From a virus, in IMG/VR virus record IMGVR_UViG_3300030419_005281, positions 1 to 24,343 of that record: a DNA stretch of 24,343 nt, one strand, 5' to 3'. The position numbers were made by a program, and so were the translations under genes. Of this stretch, positions 3,727 through 22,694 are shown piece after piece. Under the pieces are notes generated by a model. That model saw only the letters and a program-made list of their open reading frames with translations, searched no databases and was not told the origin of the DNA. Each line of letters opens with the position of its first letter. The first letter of the stretch is position 1.

Positions 3727-5577
3727 TTATTCTGGGAATGTAGCACCTGTTGGTTGAACAGTAAAGTCTAACACAATAAACTCTGCAGTTCTTGTAGGTT
3801 GTACAAATATTTGTCCATATAAGATATTTCTATCTATTAAATCTGGAGTATTATTTGAATCATCCATTACAACTCTAAATGATGTTAAACCACTTTGAGA
3901 CTGAACAGTTTCCATATATGGATTAACAATACTTAAGAATCTTCTTCGTGTTGCCGCTGTATTTTGTTCAAATACAAGGAATCTTGAAGTACTTGCGATG
4001 AATTTTTTCAATTTAATCATTAACCTACGAACATTGATTCTGTCTAACGCACTTGATTTTTTCTGTAGTGTTTTTTGTCCCCAAGCACACACACCTTGAC
4101 CAGGGAATGTTGCAATTGGATTAACATTACTATCATACAGAGTATCTCTATTACTATGAGTTAGTTTTCTCTCAGCTTGAATAGCAGTATCAATACCACC
4201 ACGATTCAATCCAGCTGGAGCGAACCAAGGATGAGCTACTTTATCATTAAACGCTATAACACCAGCTATAGAAACTGATGGTGGCACCCATCTTGGTGTT
4301 CCGGATAAATTATCAGGAACTTGAACCCAAGGATAATACATTGCTGCATAATTTGAATCTCTTGAATCACCACGAGATGTAGCTGTTGACAAAGTATCAG
4401 TATATATTGTAGGGTCAGCTACAACAAAACAATCACCTCTATCTTCACATACATCTATTGCTTTTGTTATTATAGCTTGATGGTCACTATTACTGTCACA
4501 TATACCTGGAATCAATATCATATTAATATCATATTCATCTTGATTTTTCAGTAATTGAAGAGCGTCTTCATAAGCTGTTTTACCATCAGCACCACTATTT
4601 AATAAAAATCCTTGAGTATTATCATTAAAAGCTCTTCCAATTTTGTCATACATACATGGAGGATTAGTAGTACTACCTACCCAATTACCTACTGAATCAG
4701 TTCCAGCGTATCCACTTGAAGCTTCTACAAATCCTCCACTAGCTTCCAATGGTAATGACGCTGAATTTGCTGGAACTCTAACATTTCCATTTTCATCAAG
4801 GTAATCAACTGTTGCTTTAACTACTTCAACTCTAACATATTTTGATTTATTTGGATATGAACCAGATAATTGTAAATAAGGATCTGATGTACCAACATCA
4901 GCTATTGAAAATTTTTGATCTCCAATAACTTTAAGGATGTAATTATTAGAATTTGGATCTAAACTTAAATTATTCCAAGTTTCTAATGTTTGTTTTCTTT
5001 TTATAGAATCATCACCTCTTCTAATTAGAAGAGAAAATGTTCCTTTAGAAGTATTTAATGCTGTTGTTTCCCATCTTATATTATGTTTTGAACCAGATAA
5101 TAATACATTATTATCTTTAATGGTAGTAGATCCACTCTCAAATCCACCATGTTGTGGATCTGTACTGTTCATTAAAGCTCCATCGGCTAATGTATATAAT
5201 TTAAATGATGATGCTGTGGCATTTCTACCGAGAAGCACATCTGAACTAAGGTCTGAACCTGTTGGAACATATGATACGGCTGGACCATAATCACCGTCAA
5301 GTATTCTAACAACTGTTAATCTACCAGAATGTTTTAAATAATTTTCTGCTAAATGATCAGTTAAATACCTAAAATAATTACTACCACTTTTAAATGAACT
5401 TCCAAATTTTGCTTCATAGTCACTATATGAAGATACAACGGTTGGAATTAACGCTGGCCCTTTGACTGTTGGCCCTACGACTGCCGCTCCTATCTCACCA
5501 ATTGCCGCTGGAAGAAAGGATTGATCTATTTCTGTCGTAAAGACACCTGGACTTATTACTTTTTCACTTGAAGGCAT
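3727..5577 (-). CDS. 18: Contractile tail sheath protein (gp18)
   Basis: A 616-residue protein, close to T4 gp18 (659). The N terminus (residues 1-60: VISPGVFTTEIDQSFLPAA, AAVVGPTVKGPALIPTVV, YSDYEAKFG) is the classic sheath opening. The C-terminal third (GVCAWGQKTLQKKSSALDRI, NVRRLMIKLKKFI, FVQPTRTAEFIVLDFTVQPTG) is the conserved tube-contacting domain. The middle part is the variable surface region. Sheath subunits stack around the tube and contract during infection. The ATG at 5577 follows AGGAG with eight bases of spacing. The gene has a promoter-like motif 66 bases upstream and a terminator downstream. Confidence 0.97.
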   Translation of the reverse strand: MPSSEKVISPGVFTTEIDQSFLPAAIGEIGAAVVGPTVKGPALIPTVVSSYSDYEAKFGSSFKSGSNYFRYLTDHLAENYLKHSGRLTVVRILDGDYGPAVSYVPTGSDLSSDVLLGRNATASSFKLYTLADGALMNSTDPQHGGFESGSTTIKDNNVLLSGSKHNIRWETTALNTSKGTFSLLIRRGDDSIKRKQTLETWNNLSLDPNSNNYILKVIGDQKFSIADVGTSDPYLQLSGSYPNKSKYVRVEVVKATVDYLDENGNVRVPANSASLPLEASGGFVEASSGYAGTDSVGNWVGSTTNPPCMYDKIGRAFNDNTQGFLLNSGADGKTAYEDALQLLKNQDEYDINMILIPGICDSNSDHQAIITKAIDVCEDRGDCFVVADPTIYTDTLSTATSRGDSRDSNYAAMYYPWVQVPDNLSGTPRWVPPSVSIAGVIAFNDKVAHPWFAPAGLNRGGIDTAIQAERKLTHSNRDTLYDSNVNPIATFPGQGVCAWGQKTLQKKSSALDRINVRRLMIKLKKFIASTSRFLVFEQNTAATRRRFLSIVNPYMETVQSQSGLTSFRVVMDDSNNTPDLIDRNILYGQIFVQPTRTAEFIVLDFTVQPTGATFPE

Positions 5578-6986: not shown

Positions 6987-7368
6987 TTCGTTTTCTCAAT
7001 GCTTTTAGTTTATCTTTTTTAGTTTTAACTTTACCTACATACTCTTCTGATTTGACTGCACTTGTATCAACCTTTCCTATTGCAATTTCTCTTTTAATAT
7101 CTACTTCAACAGCTCTACTCTTCTGAACTATATCAGGATTAACAGTCAATCCATCAAGTTTATTCATAACACCTGTCATAAACTCATTCATTTGAAGATT
7201 ACCATTGTCAGGTTGATAAGTATGTTTTCTTTCACCGTACACATCAGTATCTTCTTGTACATTTCCACTAACTTCTTTCTTTGGTTTTTTTAAACTTTCA
7301 GGGTCAAAGTTTGGATTCTTTAAATCATACTTAATAATTTTTTTATGTGTTATTCTTTGTACGGCCAT
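6976..7368 (-). CDS. Unknown neck-operon protein with VKTxKDKLKxLR tail (130 aa)
   Basis: A charged, mostly hydrophilic protein with no membrane segment. Residues 1-40 are lysine-rich (MAVQRITHKKIIKYDLK). The C terminus (about residues 87-127) begins VEVDIK and ends VGKVKTKKDKLKALRKR. The same ~40-residue pattern (VEVD-I/V-K ... G-x-VKT-x-KDKLK-x-LR) ends the membrane-anchored protein at 15411-15761. I know of no assigned function; the shared tail suggests a common binding partner. The ATG overlaps the previous stop as TAATG, so translation is probably coupled. It overlaps the gp15-like gene by 11 bases. Confidence 0.75.
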   Translation of the reverse strand: MAVQRITHKKIIKYDLKNPNFDPESLKKPKKEVSGNVQEDTDVYGERKHTYQPDNGNLQMNEFMTGVMNKLDGLTVNPDIVQKSRAVEVDIKREIAIGKVDTSAVKSEEYVGKVKTKKDKLKALRKRNGR

Positions 7369-7685
7369 TATATTCCTAAAGCTTGTTTTAATGTTGAGTG
7401 TATCATCTCACCTTCAATATTCTTTTTTACCACTTTTTGTCCGGGTCTTATCCCTTTTGCAAATTCTATTGTATATTTATTACTTCCTGTTTTAATAATC
7501 TCTACTTTTTTAAATCCATGTTTCCACTTACTTCCACCAAATACTATTCCTTTAGGTGTATGATTAACATAATTAGCTTTAGTTATATTTCCAAATTGAC
7601 TTGTTTTACCACCAGTAATTTGTTTTATTACTTCAAATCCTCTTTTAGTTGTTTTTTCAACTATTAAATCTTTTAATTTTATCAT
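7368..7685 (-). CDS. Small basic protein with 10-residue capsid-targeting-like peptide (105 aa)
   Basis: The start is the ATG at 7685, which overlaps the previous stop as ATGA and follows AAGGA. An upstream in-frame ATG at 7718 is rejected because it lies inside the previous gene and the paralogous start is MIKLKD. The protein begins MIKLKDLIVE, ten residues ending in I-V-E, matching the size and end of T4 capsid-targeting sequences (ten residues ending in an L/I-x-E site). The rest is lysine- and glycine-rich with predicted beta strands (KGIVFGGSKWKHGFKKVEII). It lies beside a second protein starting MIKLKDLLTE. It is probably a packaged internal protein, inferred from the N terminus only. 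Confidence 0.75.
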   Translation of the reverse strand: MIKLKDLIVEKTTKRGFEVIKQITGGKTSQFGNITKANYVNHTPKGIVFGGSKWKHGFKKVEIIKTGSNKYTIEFAKGIRPGQKVVKKNIEGEMIHSTLKQALGI

Positions 7686-8068
7686 CTTGTGTCCTTGTAT
7701 GGACTCCATCTTTTCCATAAACTAAAATCTGTTATTTTACTATCTCTTGGTTCTACAAACTTATCATTAATTGAAAAACTTTTATCTTGTATACCATAAG
7801 CTTTTTTCTTTCTACCATCTATGATGAATAAACCACCTGGTAAAGCTTGTAGTTCCATACCTTTTTTTACATCTAATTTTGTCATTACAGCTTTCTGTAA
7901 TTCTTGTGAACCTCTTCCATGTCCACCATAATGTTGTCCAGTTCCTTTATAATCACCAGTATATGTTTTAGCAGTAAATGATTTAGTAACTGTCCAATAC
8001 TTCTGATTACCGAAATCATTTTTCTTTGTATAATATTTTTCTGTTAATAAGTCTTTTAATTTAATCAT
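7682..8068 (-). CDS. Small protein with 10-residue capsid-targeting-like peptide (128 aa)
   Basis: Begins MIKLKDLLTE, ten residues ending L-T-E, a T4 prohead-protease type site, then KYYTKKNDFG. The body has aromatic/glycine-rich beta-like stretches (GTGQHYGGHGRGSQELQKAV, LQALPGGLFIIDGRKKKAYG) and a basic C terminus (WKRWSPYKDTR). The ATG shares one base with the gp14-like stop (TAATG), and the stop overlaps the next start (ATGA), so the two MIKLKD proteins are translationally coupled to a neck gene. No family recognised. Packaging into the head followed by removal of the first ten residues is the inferred fate. Confidence 0.75.
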   Translation of the reverse strand: MIKLKDLLTEKYYTKKNDFGNQKYWTVTKSFTAKTYTGDYKGTGQHYGGHGRGSQELQKAVMTKLDVKKGMELQALPGGLFIIDGRKKKAYGIQDKSFSINDKFVEPRDSKITDFSLWKRWSPYKDTR

Positions 8069-10539: not shown

Positions 10540-12255
10540 TTATACTAAGTTTAAATCTTTAACTTGGATCTTACCATAGAACTCTGGTCTAATCATTTTC
10601 TTAGCGTATCTTGTCATCACACCTTTTCTTGGAGTGAAGTCACTTGGATCGTACACTAATGGAGTCATGATTAGTGGAACATATGGTGAATATACAGCAC
10701 CGGTTTCAAGGAAGTTATTACCTCTGAATCCAACCAAGATAGTATTTTCTGTCATATAAGGATTCTTATAAACAGTAAATCTATTTTGGATTGTACCTAC
10801 AGACTGAACACCCATAGCGAACTGAGATTTGTTACCATCTGTATTAGACATATATCCAGGTATTGATTCAAGTATAGTAGCTACTTTTGGAGATACAACA
10901 CAGAAATTAGCACCACCACGAAGAGTCAATCTATGAATCTCGTTTGATACTTTTTGTATTTTACCTACAAGAGTTTGATACCATTCGAATCTTGTACCAT
11001 AGAATGTAGTAATATTCCAATTATCTTCACCTGTACCTACACCATCATAGTCCTCACCAGGAGTTACTGACCAATAATCTGTAGTTACTGCATCTGAAAT
11101 TAACATATCAAGAATTTCTAAATCAATTTCCATTGAAATATATTCTGATAACATTGAAGTTAATTCAGCTTCAGCGTCAACTGAATGATAAGCGTTAAGG
11201 TCTTGAGCTAACTCAGGAGTCCATACAGCTTTCAATTTACGAGTTTTAGCTACAATTGGTAGACTTCTAAGTTGTAAATCAACTTCAGGTATTGCTAAAT
11301 CATCAGTAGTAGCATCACCACCAGTTTCTTCAAAGTCACCTCTGTTAGCTTCATCAGGTTGTTGACTATATATAACTTTAAGGTCTTGAGAACCAGCTCC
11401 ATCAAGAGCTTCACCACAAGTTGAAGATGATACAACAAATTTAAGTGTTGTTCCATCATCAGATATAGTTGTATATTGTGGGAATACTTGTTGGAATACT
11501 GTAGCTGAACTTGAAATATTCCAAGATCTTACAGATTTATTATCAGGTCTTGTAAATACATCTCCTCCTGTTTTAATCGTTAACACATGAAGATTACCCA
11601 ATGAAGAAGAATGTTCTTGATTGAAGTTTATATCTTTATATGTAGCTGATGCAGAAGTATATGTTCCATTTGCTGAATTAATTGAACAAGTAATCGCACT
11701 TGTAGTTTGTGAATTTATTGAATAGTCATATCGACCTTGTCCATAAAGACCACCAACACCATAAGGTGCAGAAGATCCAGATGGATTGTTAGGACCAGAC
11801 TTACCGTGTAATGAATTTACATCACCACCAGGTACATTAACAGCGTCATTAACACCAAACCCACTAGCGTTACTTGATGCAGTTGTTTTACCATATTTAA
11901 AGTCAAGATAAAATACAAGACCAGATGGTAAATTCATTGGTTGAACTGAAACAAAGTCTTGAGCTGCTATTTCACCAAAAATTCTACGAACTAAAGGTAA
12001 AGCAACACCAGACCATTCTTCAGAGTTTGCTCCAGCGGCACCACCAGCGGCATATCCACTTGTAGCTGAAGCTTCTGTAATAAGTTGTTTTGCTTGGTTT
12101 TCAAGCATAACAGCCATTCCAGATTTTTGAAAATCCTCATTCAAACCATCAAGAAGACCAGTTTTATCCCATTTATTAACGAGAGCTTTTGCTTCATCTT
12201 GTTGTTTTTTATAAGGAGACGCATTTAATAAAGCGTCATTTACATAATCACCCAT
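10540..12255 (-). CDS. 23: Major capsid protein (gp23)
   Basis: A 571-residue protein (T4 gp23 has 521). The N-terminal ~61 residues form a helical pro-region (NEDFQKSGMAVMLENQAKQL) ending ITE-A at 61/62. This matches the T4 arrangement in which prohead protease cuts after an L/I-x-E at about residue 65. The mature part begins ASATSGYAAGGAAGANSEEW, then VALPLVRRIFGEIAAQDFVS and QPMNLPSGLVFYLDFKYG, diagnostic of gp23. The C terminus (YKNPYMTENTILVGFRG, TGAVYSPYVPLIMTPLVYDP) and PRKGVMTRYAKKMIRPEFYG are also typical. It assembles into the icosahedral shell on the gp22 core. The ATG follows AGGAG; the gene shares a transcript with the scaffold 16 bases upstream. No separate vertex paralogue (gp24) is present in the window. 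Confidence 0.97.
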   Translation of the reverse strand: MGDYVNDALLNASPYKKQQDEAKALVNKWDKTGLLDGLNEDFQKSGMAVMLENQAKQLITEASATSGYAAGGAAGANSEEWSGVALPLVRRIFGEIAAQDFVSVQPMNLPSGLVFYLDFKYGKTTASSNASGFGVNDAVNVPGGDVNSLHGKSGPNNPSGSSAPYGVGGLYGQGRYDYSINSQTTSAITCSINSANGTYTSASATYKDINFNQEHSSSLGNLHVLTIKTGGDVFTRPDNKSVRSWNISSSATVFQQVFPQYTTISDDGTTLKFVVSSSTCGEALDGAGSQDLKVIYSQQPDEANRGDFEETGGDATTDDLAIPEVDLQLRSLPIVAKTRKLKAVWTPELAQDLNAYHSVDAEAELTSMLSEYISMEIDLEILDMLISDAVTTDYWSVTPGEDYDGVGTGEDNWNITTFYGTRFEWYQTLVGKIQKVSNEIHRLTLRGGANFCVVSPKVATILESIPGYMSNTDGNKSQFAMGVQSVGTIQNRFTVYKNPYMTENTILVGFRGNNFLETGAVYSPYVPLIMTPLVYDPSDFTPRKGVMTRYAKKMIRPEFYGKIQVKDLNLV

Positions 12256-12271
12256 GATTATTTTCTCCTAA

Positions 12272-13324
12272 TTACTTAATTAAACCAGCTAATTTTCTAA
12301 ATCTATCAGCAACTTGAGTTTCTTCAGAAATCACTTTCTTTGATTCTTTAGAAGGTTTAGTTGAACTAACAGCTGAACTAGCTGATTCTTTAATTGGTTT
12401 TCTTCTTGCAATAGATCCGTTATCTCCGAATTGTTCTGCAAGAGTTGTGTATACTAGTTTAATCTCACGAGTAGTTTGAGCTCTGTCAAAAGTTTCGACC
12501 ACTTTTAGTTTTTGATTATTGTTCAAACTATACTCTTTAAATAACTTGTTAGTAAATAACAATTTAGCATTCAGAATATTTACTTCGTGAAGTTTACCTT
12601 TTAAGAAAGATACAGCTTCTTTATACTCTTTTAATTCAGCTTTGATAGACTCCATAGCTTTCGCTTTTTCTTGTCCACCTTTACCGATACCAGAGGATGT
12701 GTCAGTGTTTCCACGACCTGTACCGTTACCAATACCAGAAGATTTATCTACTTCATCAAGTTCTTCTTCGTCTTCTTCAAGAGCTACTTCATCAATCTCA
12801 TACTCTTCTTCAACAGGTTCATCACTTGATTCTTCAACAGGTTCATCAGATTCATCAACTTCAACAGATTCTTCTTCAACTTCAGGTTCTTCTTCGGCAG
12901 GTATTTCTTCTTCACCAGCTTCATCTTCACCTTCTTCTTCAGAAATTTCTTGTTCAAGTTCTTTAATCACAGAATCTAAGTCAAGACTATTTAAACCTTC
13001 TTCTTCAACTTCAGGTTCTTCTTCATCTTCAACTTCAGCTTCTTCTTCACCTTCTTCATCTTCTTGTTCAGCAACATAAGCTTCTTCAGCAGGTATTTCT
13101 TCTTCACCACCTTCTTCGTCATCTACTGCTACTTCTTCATCATCTTCAAATTCATCTTCCATAACTGGATCAGATTCTTCGATTTCATCTTCTTTAAGTT
13201 TAGCAGATAACATATTTTTAAGTTGTGGTGTGAATGCTTCTTCTAAGGCCATTTTAGCATTTTGTAAAGCTGTTTCTCTAACTGCTTTAGCATCTGCTAT
13301 GGCTTCTTTTAAAATATCACCCAT
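12272..13324 (-). CDS. 22: Prohead core scaffolding protein (gp22-like)
   Basis: I start at the ATG at 13324 (MGDILKEAIADAKAVRE), nine bases after GGAG; the ATG at 13339 lies upstream of that site. The protein has 350 residues, longer than T4 gp22 (269). A helical N terminus (ALQNAKMALEEAFTPQLKNM) leads into a ~150-residue stretch that is largely Glu/Asp (residues ~45-195, with EEEIPAEE twice and repeated PVEE), then a helical scaffold core (LHEVNILNAKLLFTNKLFKE, NQKLKVVETFDRAQTTREIK). The core pattern is typical of gp22. The scaffold guides shell assembly and is degraded by prohead protease. The acidic expansion may mimic DNA charge or bind the many basic cargo-like proteins, which is inference. 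It precedes gp23 as in T4. Confidence 0.9.
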   Translation of the reverse strand: MGDILKEAIADAKAVRETALQNAKMALEEAFTPQLKNMLSAKLKEDEIEESDPVMEDEFEDDEEVAVDDEEGGEEEIPAEEAYVAEQEDEEGEEEAEVEDEEEPEVEEEGLNSLDLDSVIKELEQEISEEEGEDEAGEEEIPAEEEPEVEEESVEVDESDEPVEESSDEPVEEEYEIDEVALEEDEEELDEVDKSSGIGNGTGRGNTDTSSGIGKGGQEKAKAMESIKAELKEYKEAVSFLKGKLHEVNILNAKLLFTNKLFKEYSLNNNQKLKVVETFDRAQTTREIKLVYTTLAEQFGDNGSIARRKPIKESASSAVSSTKPSKESKKVISEETQVADRFRKLAGLIK

Positions 13325-13339
13325 GATACTTTTCTCCAT

Positions 13340-13442
13340 ATATTATATTATTTTGGAATAAGTTTATTAGGAAACTTAATAAGGTTAAGCGGATTTTTAG
13401 ACACCATATAGTTCGCAATAAGATGGTGTATTTGTAATTGTT
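13340..13442 (-). promoter_or_regulatory. Structured leader of the scaffold-capsid message
   Basis: About 118 bases separate the promoter-like motif at 13443 from the scaffold ATG. ACACCAT (13401-13407) and ATGGTGT (13423-13429) form a 7-bp stem with a 15-base loop, and TTATTA/TAATAA form a weaker stem closer to the gene. A 5' stem may protect this abundant message. No riboswitch class is recognised. Confidence 0.4.
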
Positions 13443-13456
13443 CGTATATAAATATT
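13443..13456 (-). promoter_or_regulatory. Promoter-like motif, copy 8
   Basis: Plus strand CGTATATAAATATT, two bases off the main form. It lies upstream of the scaffold and major capsid genes and just after the bS21 gene. Confidence 0.6.
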
Positions 13457-13469
13457 AAAAAATATAAAA

Positions 13470-13491
13470 AATTAATAGTTTTTATTAATTA
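13470..13491 (-). terminator. Weak AT-only hairpin at end of bS21 gene
   Basis: AATTAATA and TATTAATT form an 8-bp A/T stem overlapping the bS21 stop codon. It is followed on the minus strand by T-rich sequence. With no G-C pairs it would terminate poorly at best, so read-through into the scaffold gene is likely. Confidence 0.3.
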
Positions 13492-13742
13492 TTTTCTTTT
13501 TCTTTTTCTACTGACCATTTATTTCTTAAAATGGCTAAATTCTTTTTTTCTCTTTTAAGTTTTGATGGTTTTTCATAAAATGTTCTTTTTTTCAATTCAA
13601 ACATTAAATTACTTTTCTTGATTTTCTTTTTAAGAACTTTTAAAGCTCCTTCGACATTATTGTTATAAACCTTTACTGATAACCCACCCATTTGTTTTTC
13701 TTTGGGTTTTCTTTTTTTATGAAACTTCTTTTTGTATCTCAA
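13485..13742 (-). CDS. rpsU: Phage-encoded ribosomal protein bS21
   Basis: An 85-residue protein whose residues 19-75 match small-subunit protein bS21: GGLSVKVYNNNVEGALKVLK, then KKIKKSNLMFELKKRTFYEK followed by PSKLKREKK. The bS21 hallmarks are the V-x-V-x-N-N start, the paired helices and the ELxxRxFYEKPSxxRxxK motif. An extra basic N-terminal arm (FHKKRKPKEKQ) precedes the domain. The start is TTG at 13742, supported by GAGG five bases upstream; an internal ATG before GGLSV lacks such a site. bS21 helps the 30S subunit engage mRNA, and viral copies are known from marine phages. A phage copy could exchange onto host ribosomes and favour viral messages. It sits at the end of the long head operon, next to scaffold and capsid. 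Confidence 0.9.
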   Translation of the reverse strand: MRYKKKFHKKRKPKEKQMGGLSVKVYNNNVEGALKVLKKKIKKSNLMFELKKRTFYEKPSKLKREKKNLAILRNKWSVEKEKENN

Positions 13743-13743
13743 T

Positions 13744-14394
13744 TTAACCTCTTATTTGTTGTTTAATTATTCCTCTTATAACTTTTCGTAACCTTTGTTC
13801 ATTCATTTGTTTTGATTCCAAATGTTTTATGAATTCTTTTGCTAAAAATCTTTCTCTTCCATATTGAGCTTTTGTCCATTTCTTTCTCATTGATATAGGC
13901 ATTGATTCATAGTCTTCTGATAAATTATGATTAACAAACCAAGCTACTCTACGACAATCTGACTGATAAGTTTTTTTATATCTATTTTCTTCAAGTGTTT
14001 TCATCCATTTTTTAACTTCTTTAACAGTACATCTTTTACCTTTTGATTCTTTAACATTTGGATGAGCTGGACCACCCACATCACCACCTTTTGGTCTTTT
14101 TCTTTTTTTCTTTTTCTTTGCAGCTTTCTCAGCAGCATCTAATTTCGCATTAGCGTCACTAACAGCTTTATCCATTCTTTTTTCAATATCTCTTTTAGAA
14201 CCAGGTTTTGTTGGTCTTCCACTACCTGGACCACCTTCTTCTACTTCATCTTTTTCTTCTTCGTCAAAAGGATTATCCATTATATCAGTTTTAGCTTGTT
14301 TTGGCCCTTCAGGTTTTTTATCATCACCCTCAGACATAATCTCATCAATAGATTGTTTAATTATTTCTTTAATCTGACTTTTTGTTAGTTTCAC
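13744..14394 (-). CDS. Basic protein with capsid-targeting-like N terminus (216 aa)
   Basis: Starts at a GTG (14394) preceded by GAGGAAGAGG and overlaps the actin-like gene by 26 bases. It opens MKLTKSQIKEIIKQSIDEIM, then SE-GDD, the same pattern as the starts at 17884, 18121 and 18375. Residues ~45-115 are low-complexity (acidic, then a GGPGSGRPTKPGSKRD linker, then a KKKKKRKRPKGG cluster). Residues ~120-195 look folded (CTVKEVKKWMKTLEENRYKK, CRRVAWFVNHNLSEDYESM). The last 20 residues (MNEQRLRKVIRGIIKQQIRG) resemble the N-terminal peptide again. Function unknown; a DNA-binding internal head protein is a reasonable guess from its charge and the leader-like start. Confidence 0.75.
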   Translation of the reverse strand: MKLTKSQIKEIIKQSIDEIMSEGDDKKPEGPKQAKTDIMDNPFDEEEKDEVEEGGPGSGRPTKPGSKRDIEKRMDKAVSDANAKLDAAEKAAKKKKKRKRPKGGDVGGPAHPNVKESKGKRCTVKEVKKWMKTLEENRYKKTYQSDCRRVAWFVNHNLSEDYESMPISMRKKWTKAQYGRERFLAKEFIKHLESKQMNEQRLRKVIRGIIKQQIRG

Positions 14395-15409
14395 CCTCTT
14401 CCTCCTCTATAAGTTGTGCTTCACTCAAACAACCCCTTGATACGGCTGTATGAGCATCTTCTACTAAAATAAATTCCTTAACATTGATAGGAAATTCATC
14501 TTGACTAAATTGTTCATTTACTACATCCATAAAACCTTTAACCAATGATGTTCCTCCACCAAATACAACTGGAATTGAATTAGGGAAGTTTGGTACACTT
14601 TCAGCATTATTAAACTGATGTGTTAAGTTTGTCAATAAGTAGTTGACTAATGCACCATAATAACTTCTGATAGCATTTATGATATTGTACTCATCACTTC
14701 CCTCACTATAAATATCACTTATTGCACTTTTTGTTAAATCTAAGTTATTTGAACTCTCTTTTATACTTATCACTTTTGCTTTAGTAACACCACAATCTGC
14801 CGCTACATTTTCATCAATCCAATCTCCACCTCTAGCAACAGAGAAGGAGAGTGCACTCATTCCTTGATACATCACACATATATTACACATTCCAGCACCC
14901 ATAGAGATAGCAATACCAGTCAAATCATTATCTACCAATCCTTCATAGGCGAGAGCTACACTCTCCTCTATAACTTTGACATTGTATCCATAATTTTCAA
15001 TGATCTGTTTTAATACATCTTCGTGATAAGAAACTTCTCTTACTTGATCTATTGGTTTTGCTGGTACACAATAAACACAAGTTTCTTTTCCTTTTGCTTT
15101 ACCTAACAATTCACCAATGATTGCATTTAAAACAGGTAAAGCATCTTTTTCTTTTGGATTTAATAATCCACTTGCCATTGGTCTTTTTAATTCTGTTGTA
15201 CTAAATATTTGTGCATAATTAAAAGCGTGTTGTCCAACAATGTGTACATTACCTGCTTTTTCCACAAATGGTATTCTCTGTCTTTTCAACATTCTTTTAA
15301 CTTGATTTGCATCTCCATCGACTGTTAGAAATACATTTCTTTGTTTTTTTATACTTTTATCTGTTGCTGCTATGTAGTAACTTGTACCACAATCTAAACC
15401 TTTAGCCAT
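14369..15409 (-). CDS. Actin/Hsp70-fold ATPase-like protein
   Basis: A 346-residue protein with the ordered motifs of the actin-MreB-ParM-Hsp70 superfamily. Phosphate-1 is GLDCGTS (4-10), connect-1 VIEESVALAYEGL (146-158), phosphate-2 AISMGAGMCNICV (167-179), a GGDWIDENVA segment (194-203) as in MreB/Hsp70, and the adenosine motif PVVFGGGTSLVKGF (280-293). The usual Asp of phosphate-2 (D-x-G-G-G-T) appears to be Ser169, so hydrolysis may be weak or altered. Length fits MreB or ParM rather than full Hsp70; there is no substrate-binding domain. It could form filaments that position DNA or capsids, or act as an assembly chaperone. The ATG follows AAGAGGTTAAT one base after the preceding stop. 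I am confident of the fold, not of the job. Confidence 0.82.
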   Translation of the reverse strand: MAKGLDCGTSYYIAATDKSIKKQRNVFLTVDGDANQVKRMLKRQRIPFVEKAGNVHIVGQHAFNYAQIFSTTELKRPMASGLLNPKEKDALPVLNAIIGELLGKAKGKETCVYCVPAKPIDQVREVSYHEDVLKQIIENYGYNVKVIEESVALAYEGLVDNDLTGIAISMGAGMCNICVMYQGMSALSFSVARGGDWIDENVAADCGVTKAKVISIKESSNNLDLTKSAISDIYSEGSDEYNIINAIRSYYGALVNYLLTNLTHQFNNAESVPNFPNSIPVVFGGGTSLVKGFMDVVNEQFSQDEFPINVKEFILVEDAHTAVSRGCLSEAQLIEEEEGETNKKSD

Positions 15410-17156: not shown

Positions 17157-17450
17157 CTAAAAAAAAATTAATTTGATTATAATTCCTATCAATGTTGAAT
17201 AAGATATCCACATAGCGTGATTTATATTTTGTTTCCATCTTATTAAGGCTTTAAATTCATCAGTATCAATTTGATGTCTCCAATAGGTATTTTTATTTAC
17301 TCTAACTACTATCCCATCTTCTGGGTCTAACAAAATTTCTTTTATTTCTTTAATATTTTCATGCATTTCCAAAAGTTCACCATTTGGTAATCTTTTTTCA
17401 ATACAATCCAATCTATCTGCTAAATGTTTATTTGTGATACTATTTGCCAC
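17157..17450 (-). CDS. Small protein with helical stalk and C-terminal membrane anchor (97 aa)
   Basis: Starts at GTG (17450), sharing one base with the previous stop (TAGTG), after AAGGA. Residues 1-45 are helical and charged (NKHLADRLDCIEKRLPNG, MHENIKEIKEIL), followed by LDPEDGIVVRVNKNTYWRH. A C-terminal segment (~residues 77-97, HAMWISYSTLIGIIIKLIFF) is hydrophobic enough to span the membrane. The arrangement (N-terminal coiled coil, DPEDG turn, tail anchor) resembles small phage membrane proteins such as XhlA-type lysis accessory proteins, but that is a resemblance in layout only. It could help lysis or membrane attachment of assembly factors. Confidence 0.7.
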   Translation of the reverse strand: MANSITNKHLADRLDCIEKRLPNGELLEMHENIKEIKEILLDPEDGIVVRVNKNTYWRHQIDTDEFKALIRWKQNINHAMWISYSTLIGIIIKLIFF

Positions 17451-17884
17451 TATTTAGTCCTTCCAGGTTTTCCTTTTTTACCACCAAAATATTTTCTAAA
17501 TCTATCCATAATTTTATCTCTATTTAAAACAGACATTAAAAACTTTGTTTCAAATGGTTTAGCTCTTGCAATATTACCAGTTTGCATTCCCCTTACTAAA
17601 TCAAAATAATCAATTGTACCATTTTTAGCTTTTGACATCCAATCCTTTATTACTCTATATTGAGTTTTTCTTAAATCTTTTGCCCACATTCTTAAACCAT
17701 CATCAACTACTTTTTTTGCTTCTTTTGAAGAAAATCCTTGATAAAAATCTTTATTACCACTCTTTTCTCTTTTTTTATATTCTGAACTACTTGTACCAGG
17801 ATATGAAGGGGTAGAAAATGAACCAAGTTCATTAACAAGTTCCTCTTTAATAATTTCTTTTAATCTATCCTTACTTATTTTCAT
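17450..17884 (-). CDS. Basic protein with capsid-targeting-like N terminus (144 aa)
   Basis: Opens MKISKDRLKEIIKEELVNEL, with L-V-N-E as a possible protease site at residues 16-19. A Ser/Pro-rich linker (GSFSTPSYPGTSSSEYKK) follows, then a helical basic domain (GFSSKEAKKVVDDGLRMWAK, YRVIKDWMSKAKNGTIDYFD, FLMSVLNRDKIMDRFRKYF) and a GGKKGKPGRTK tail. No family recognised. It starts seven bases after the previous stop with no clear Shine-Dalgarno site, so translation probably depends on coupling to the gene before it. The leader plus linker plus basic domain fits a packaged internal head protein. Confidence 0.72.
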   Translation of the reverse strand: MKISKDRLKEIIKEELVNELGSFSTPSYPGTSSSEYKKREKSGNKDFYQGFSSKEAKKVVDDGLRMWAKDLRKTQYRVIKDWMSKAKNGTIDYFDLVRGMQTGNIARAKPFETKFLMSVLNRDKIMDRFRKYFGGKKGKPGRTK

Positions 17885-17890
17885 ATCATT

Positions 17891-18121
17891 TTAAGATGCT
17901 AAACGATGCATCTTAACTCCTCTTAACAGATTATATAATTCTTTTTTATCTAAAATAGCTTTACCTTTTCCTGTCATAATTACAATTTTATCACCTGTCC
18001 ACTGCATATCAGCTCTTGAAGATAATTTAAATCTCCCACCTTCATTAAGTTTTTCTTCTTTTACAAGTTTTTGAATTTCTTCTCTAATAATTTCTTTTAA
18101 TCTTTCCTTAGATATATTCAT
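17891..18121 (-). CDS. Small protein with capsid-targeting-like N terminus (76 aa)
   Basis: Opens MNISKERLKEIIREEIQKLV, then KEEKLNE-GG at residues 21-29, where K-L-N-E followed by Gly is a good L-x-E site. After removal, about 49 residues would remain: GGRFKLSSRADMQWTGDKIV, then a small beta-like region and LLRGVKMHRLAS. The start overlaps the previous stop as TAATG. No family is recognised. This is the clearest case in the window of a leader that makes up a third of the whole gene product. Confidence 0.7.
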   Translation of the reverse strand: MNISKERLKEIIREEIQKLVKEEKLNEGGRFKLSSRADMQWTGDKIVIMTGKGKAILDKKELYNLLRGVKMHRLAS

Positions 18122-18375
18122 TATTTTTCCCTTTTCATTTTTGTCTTAATTTTTTGAATATACATAATTAATTCTTGTGGAGATATTCCTAAAGCTTTGA
18201 TTACTTTGAATAAAACAGACATTTTTTTAATTTTATTTAAATCAGCTTCTTTTACGGCACCTACAAATTTTTTCATAAATCTTTTTACTTGTGCTGGAAC
18301 AACCACTTTTTCGAGATTTTGTTCTTCAATTGTTTGTCTAATAAGTTCTTTTAATTGTGATTTTGTAATTTTCAT
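18121..18375 (-). CDS. Small basic helical protein with capsid-targeting-like N terminus (84 aa)
   Basis: I use the ATG at 18375, with AGGAG upstream, rather than the TTG one codon earlier. It opens MKITKSQLKELIRQTIEEQN, then LE-KVV. The remainder is basic and helical (PAQVKRFMKKFVGAVKEADL, KMSVLFKVIKALGISPQELI) and ends in KTKMKREK. No family recognised. It is coupled to the next gene by TAATG overlap. Size, charge and leader all fit the phage's group of small candidate internal proteins. Confidence 0.7.
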   Translation of the reverse strand: MKITKSQLKELIRQTIEEQNLEKVVVPAQVKRFMKKFVGAVKEADLNKIKKMSVLFKVIKALGISPQELIMYIQKIKTKMKREK

Positions 18376-18384
18376 CAATATCTC

Positions 18385-22680: not shown

Positions 22681-22694
22681 CATATATAAATATA
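22681..22694 (-). promoter_or_regulatory. Promoter-like motif, copy 9
   Basis: Plus strand CATATATAAATATA in the gap between the portal stop (22719) and the ATG at 22636. No terminator stem is visible in this gap, so the head operon could also be read from the portal transcript. Confidence 0.6.

Follow-up and report, generated by a model that had tools for sequence, protein, structure and literature searches.

A ribosomal protein bS21 homologue with a basic N-terminal arm in the head-gene cluster of a T4-like phage group

The window analyzed here, a 24,343-base uncultured virus record (IMG/VR), carries within its T4-like head-gene cluster an open reading frame that is, with near certainty, a genuine homologue of ribosomal protein bS21. 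We consider it fairly probable that this phage bS21, which is kept in the head cluster, is made during virion building, binds host 30S subunits at the platform, and sustains initiation led by Shine-Dalgarno (SD) sequences; our confidence in the functional claim overall is moderate. Phage-encoded bS21 proteins are already known (Mizuno et al. 2019; Chen et al. 2022), and we regard the window gene as a variant of these and not as a novel type.

Results

A bS21 gene in a T4-like head module

All convincing genes of the window lie on the minus strand, to which every window coordinate below refers, and they constitute a T4-like head and tail module encoding the portal gp20, the prohead protease gp21, the capsid protein gp23, and the tail sheath. 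The gp20, gp21, and gp23 homologues occur in the order of a T4-like myovirus head module (PF07230, PF03420, and PF07068), with the major capsid protein gp23 at 10540–12255 (PF07068, E 2e-77). The 85-residue bS21 gene (13485–13742) sits between a gene for a 216-residue protein, X216 (13744–14394), and the gene for an acidic prohead scaffold-like protein (12272–13324) that itself precedes gp23. Homologues of the scaffold-like protein likewise stand before the major capsid gene in relatives, in Flavobacterium phage immuto, and in Microcystis phage Mel-JY01; its listed start at 13339 is probably 15 nucleotides too early, and we revised it to 13324, which has an SD. Pfam and PHROG searches returned no match for either the scaffold-like protein or X216, and a phmmer comparison of neighbouring genes placed an X216-related open reading frame at the same position in most loci of the close clade. 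Upstream of X216 lies a 346-residue volactin-type actin homologue (14369–15409), which matches the PF25216 profile with 245.5 bits (E 1.3e-72; 1–331). PF25216 is named after the haloarchaeal volactin. Many otherwise unrelated-looking proteins share an N-terminal motif of the type MKITKxxLKEIIRxxIxE or MIKLKDLxxEK (in the window at 7368–8068, 13744–14394, and 17450–18378, several genes), which may serve internal head proteins as a capsid-targeting leader.

The initial annotation had read the open reading frame at 13485–13742 as bS21, and this assignment was borne out. The protein matches the Ribosomal_S21 family PF01165 with 50.8 bits (cut-off 27; E 1.3e-13) over residues 22–73, covering positions 1–53 of the 55 in the profile, and it also matches phrog_21469, ‘ribosomal protein S21’, as well as solved bS21 chains in the PDB. 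The YEKPS core motif is kept. AlphaFold predicted the core, which together with the C-terminal helix spans residues 21–85 (13485–13682), with confidence (pLDDT 84–96) and with helices at residues 30–44, 46–54, and 59–84. Foldseek aligned this core to the bS21 chain 9fib_U with an rmsd of 1.2 over 58 columns (TMt 0.81, prob 0.97, E 0.23); the best E-value, 0.02, was to mitochondrial bS21m, and bacterial bS21 was matched as well. The Foldseek E-values are weak (0.02–0.2) because the protein is short; the predicted core and the structural matches together conform to the helical bS21 fold. A tblastn search of phage records with the full protein gave no match, probably due to low-complexity masking; the core of a relative did match.

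Conserved placement and purifying selection

To examine the locus across viruses, we fetched 80 virus loci via relatives of the neighbouring volactin gene, and two more via bS21 itself. bS21 is present in nearly all of them; the five loci without it (L007, L011, L012, L013, and L015) end before the position that it would occupy. Wherever the sequence continues sufficiently beyond the volactin gene, in 77 of 77 loci, bS21 comes next or is separated from it by one or a few genes; the scaffold and capsid genes come after bS21 wherever the contig reaches them, on one strand throughout. The placement beside scaffold and capsid genes that had been pointed out for the window is thus a property of the group. 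Pairwise dN/dS among close bS21 genes has a median of 0.35, indicating purifying selection. The volactin-type protein is similarly fixed in the head cluster of the group, with 73–92% identity to the window copy across 11 aligned sequences.

The fixed order in 77 loci and the dN/dS median argue that bS21 is no passenger and that a widespread group of marine T4-like phages maintains it as a core gene among those for head assembly. The gene could alternatively be a passive moron or a recent capture from a host, carried without a selected function, and multiple transfers of bS21 between viruses and hosts are documented (PMC6375957). Against a fixed position, purifying selection, and a conserved SD and N-terminal arm, we regard such a passive origin as effectively refuted.

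Start codon and translational coupling

The window bS21 gene starts with TTG (13740–13742) in the context aagaggttaaa|TTG, with GAGG placed 5 nucleotides before the start codon (SD region 13743–13752) and a predicted pairing with the 16S tail of −7.0 kcal/mol. The 26 aligned close relatives possess ATG at the equivalent position, mostly behind the same GAGGT SD; the GAGGTTAAA-TTG of the window corresponds to GAGGTTAAT-ATG, or a closely similar sequence, in these relatives. Since the ATG of the relatives aligns with the TTG, the start proposed in the initial annotation is right. The TTG itself is a one-codon difference from ATG confined to the window contig, and a sequencing or assembly error is possible. 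To call this start distinctive, as had been done for the start and the arm together, is apt for the arm and overstated for the TTG; alphaproteobacterial rpsU genes mostly begin at non-AUG codons. The alphaproteobacterial rpsU genes that we sampled (L113–L127 and L140–L169) are mostly without an ATG start, GTG being the commonest, and in 14 Pelagibacterales genomes rpsU offers no in-frame ATG, GTG, or TTG, only ATA behind AAGGAGG or similar (ATT in L111 and L127). This suggests that bS21 is controlled through its start codon.

The SD of the phage bS21 gene falls within the last codons of X216, and the X216 stop lies 1 nucleotide before the bS21 start; bS21 is for that reason probably coupled translationally to X216.

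A basic N-terminal arm

Preceding the core, the window protein carries an arm, MRYKKKFHKKRKPKEKQMGG, of 20 residues with a net charge of +9 (residues 1–20; 13683–13742), which AlphaFold modeled with low confidence (pLDDT about 58). The basic extension noted for the window is real and group-wide: in 25 of 27 aligned relatives the arm comprises at least 8 residues with a net charge of at least +3 (median length 17, median charge +7), and among these 27 the charge is kept while the sequence drifts. One relative, L026, possesses a bS21 without the arm, and the arm accordingly appears dispensable. bS21 of F. johnsoniae has two residues before the same point of the core, and the alphaproteobacterial bS21 genes begin directly at the core. 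Mitochondrial bS21m, which furnished the best Foldseek matches, extends a few residues further at its N-terminus than E. coli bS21; the phage arm exceeds even this length and is very basic, and the phage and mitochondrial proteins are about 28% identical.

Transcription units and an RNA leader next to bS21

Between bS21 and the scaffold gene lies a promoter-like motif (13447–13454), the TATTTATA core of GATATTTATATATGA, also written TATTTATATA. The motif strongly favours one strand, with ratios of 50:1 among close relatives and 23:0 for the second clade, and it stands before structural genes, sometimes directly after a terminator-like hairpin. In the window it occurs, in gene orientation on the minus strand, at 1352, 3028, 3648, 5648, 6029, 9784, 10462, 13447, and 22685. 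Read as its reverse complement, the late-promoter word of T4, TATAAATA, is contained in the motif; a T4-type TATAAATA late promoter in gene orientation was rejected, as the enriched word is the reverse complement there and part of GATATTTATATATGA. With one site at 22685 and the next at 13447, bS21 would be the last gene of a unit starting near 22,690, just before the scaffold-capsid unit, and outside the latter, given that the candidate promoter is downstream of bS21. We count this candidate promoter after bS21, together with the absence of the arm in L026, against our main reading.

The scaffold gene is preceded by a two-hairpin RNA leader (13327–13436; 91.4 bits with covariance model R1, built from the leader). 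In an alignment of 37 non-redundant sequences, all 518 pair cells across the 14 pairs are standard, with compensatory change in 7 of the 14; slid controls fall to 28–51%. Leaders were also located at 3896–4000 in L005, 9299–9398 in L041, and, on the minus strand, 16841–16947 in L084 and 14740–14830 in L085. The leader matched no Rfam family. With R1, the corresponding site before the scaffold gene is detected in immuto (E 1e-4 across the whole 160-kb genome) and in Mel-JY01 (E 0.003); a match in Pelagibacter phage HTVC008M is antisense inside a coding sequence and was dismissed as chance. The head region of immuto shows no bS21, and immuto is not among the phage records matched by the bS21 core. 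As the leader is thus present where bS21 is not seen nearby, it is not an accessory of bS21, and its reading as a bS21-dependent element is not supported. The leader probably represents a cis-regulatory RNA family, new as a finding where phage bS21 is not, that belongs to the head operons of T4-like phages.

The adjacency of a conserved structured RNA, the very basic arm, and the location in the head operon could be taken to mean that bS21 has left the ribosome, with arm and core binding phage RNA or DNA during head assembly, for instance the scaffold leader or packaged DNA; bS21 has been reported in a non-ribosomal ribonucleoprotein, the OLE complex (PMC12054373). We deem this unlikely, as the YEKPS motif and the helices of the core are retained, the leader also occurs in immuto, and one bS21 is without the arm. 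Slightly less likely still, the arm-bearing bS21 might make phage-specific ribosomes, or act as an RNA-binding regulator, favouring late head mRNAs that bear the two-hairpin leader; if so, a ribosomal protein and a cis-acting RNA would jointly control scaffold and capsid output.

Shine-Dalgarno use and evidence on the host

Strong SDs in the window had been proposed to suit ribosomes enriched in bS21. We quantified SDs using one crude gene caller for all genomes, counting as strong a ΔG of at most −5 with the 16S tail. Strong SDs precede 61% of window genes; the share is 66% among close relatives, 53% for the second clade, and 68% for a 113-kb relative, against 12–22% for internal ATGs as a control. 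By the same measure, the proportions are 0% in immuto, 46% in Mel-JY01, 50–55% in pelagiphages, and 63% in T4. T4, in which we detected no bS21, thus equals the window, and Mel-JY01, which has bS21, lies lower; SD use therefore tracks SD-using translation and not the presence of bS21, and we rejected strong SDs as evidence for bS21-tuned ribosomes. The strong SDs of the window group are nonetheless real, and they argue that the host uses SDs.

This bears on the model put forward for Bacteroidota, in which Tyr54 of F. johnsoniae bS21 occludes the anti-SD (PMC9723584) and a phage bS21 would enter ribosomes with an occluded anti-SD and select phage mRNAs. The capsid and portal genes of the window are closest to those of Mel-JY01 and of the Flavobacterium phage immuto, which would fit such a host. 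However, the window group uses strong SDs and immuto none, and the residue aligned to Tyr54 is L72 in the window protein; 58 of 61 distinct relatives likewise have a non-aromatic residue there, the three exceptions being two His and one Tyr. The use of SDs and the lack of an aromatic residue at the Tyr54 position speak against a host among the Bacteroidota in which the anti-SD is occluded, and the model of Chen et al. 2022 does not transfer directly to the window group; we disfavour it as improbable here. The sole genome match with a close volactin is the Pelagibacter metagenome-assembled genome MED605 (L086), where the match is a viral contig of 8.6 kb within a metagenome bin, which is weak evidence of host. 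In the 113-kb relative, a one-piece tmRNA (RF00023, 121.7 bits; L132 11967–12389) is encoded next to a tRNA-Arg, which is possibly useful for host assignment.

Discussion

Known phage bS21 proteins offer a comparison. The bS21 of HTVC008M (AGE60443; Mizuno et al. 2019, PMC6375957) likewise has the NNNVE core and belongs to a T4-like marine phage with SD-using genes, but it starts with ATG, has no basic arm, and adjoins genes for a cobalt-chelatase subunit (CobS) and a heat-shock protein instead of residing in a head cluster. The lake ‘bS21 phages’ (Chen et al. 2022, PMC9723584) resemble the window group in that their bS21 lies in a conserved region together with genes for capsid, protease, and portal; they are predicted phages of Bacteroidota, which are hosts without SD use, with bS21 on the strand opposite to the structural genes and an aromatic residue at the Tyr54 position, whereas bS21 of the window group is co-directional in all loci, belongs to SD-using phages, lacks the Tyr54-type aromatic, and has the basic arm. 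RpsU of the cultured relative Mel-JY01 (WWT39311) is likewise encoded between protease and scaffold/capsid on the same strand and accompanied by both the promoter-like motif and the RNA leader; it differs in beginning without a basic arm (MFDTTYGINPKP...), and no volactin is seen between protease and capsid.

Taken together, the most likely role for the phage protein is that bS21 made late replaces or tops up host bS21 on the 30S subunit during virion production. bS21 would be made as virions are built, probably co-transcribed with head genes and coupled to the preceding gene; late timing is predicted from gene order, and lake-phage bS21 is highly transcribed at the stage when structural genes are (PMC9723584). 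The protein would then bind the 30S platform, instead of or besides host bS21, and keep initiation going on SD-bearing phage mRNAs where a shortage of bS21 would otherwise set the limit. The N-terminal helix of bS21 lies near the duplex of mRNA and anti-SD (PMC9723584), so the basic arm may be positioned near this duplex as well and add non-specific affinity for RNA.

In the only published test, a pelagiphage bS21 entered E. coli ribosomes, and those ribosomes were about 5% active in vitro (PMC6375957); in the natural host, phage bS21 may thus either support translation or inhibit it. The same result could signify host shut-off, with phage bS21 displacing host bS21 and disabling 30S subunits for host mRNAs while playing no positive role for phage mRNAs. 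We give this a minor share of the probability, though more than any other alternative, given that the test employed a foreign host, that bS21 resides with head genes and not early genes, and that ribosomes must be active for head proteins to be synthesized late.

It is an open question whether phages make specialised ribosomes, and the window group poses it cleanly: its members are common marine phages that use SDs, to which the model of anti-SD occlusion does not apply, and bS21 has a fixed place in their head cluster. The conserved basic arm has a role that is testable by deletion, and the cultured Mel-JY01, with bS21 and leader, and immuto, with the leader and no bS21 in its head region, provide the comparators.
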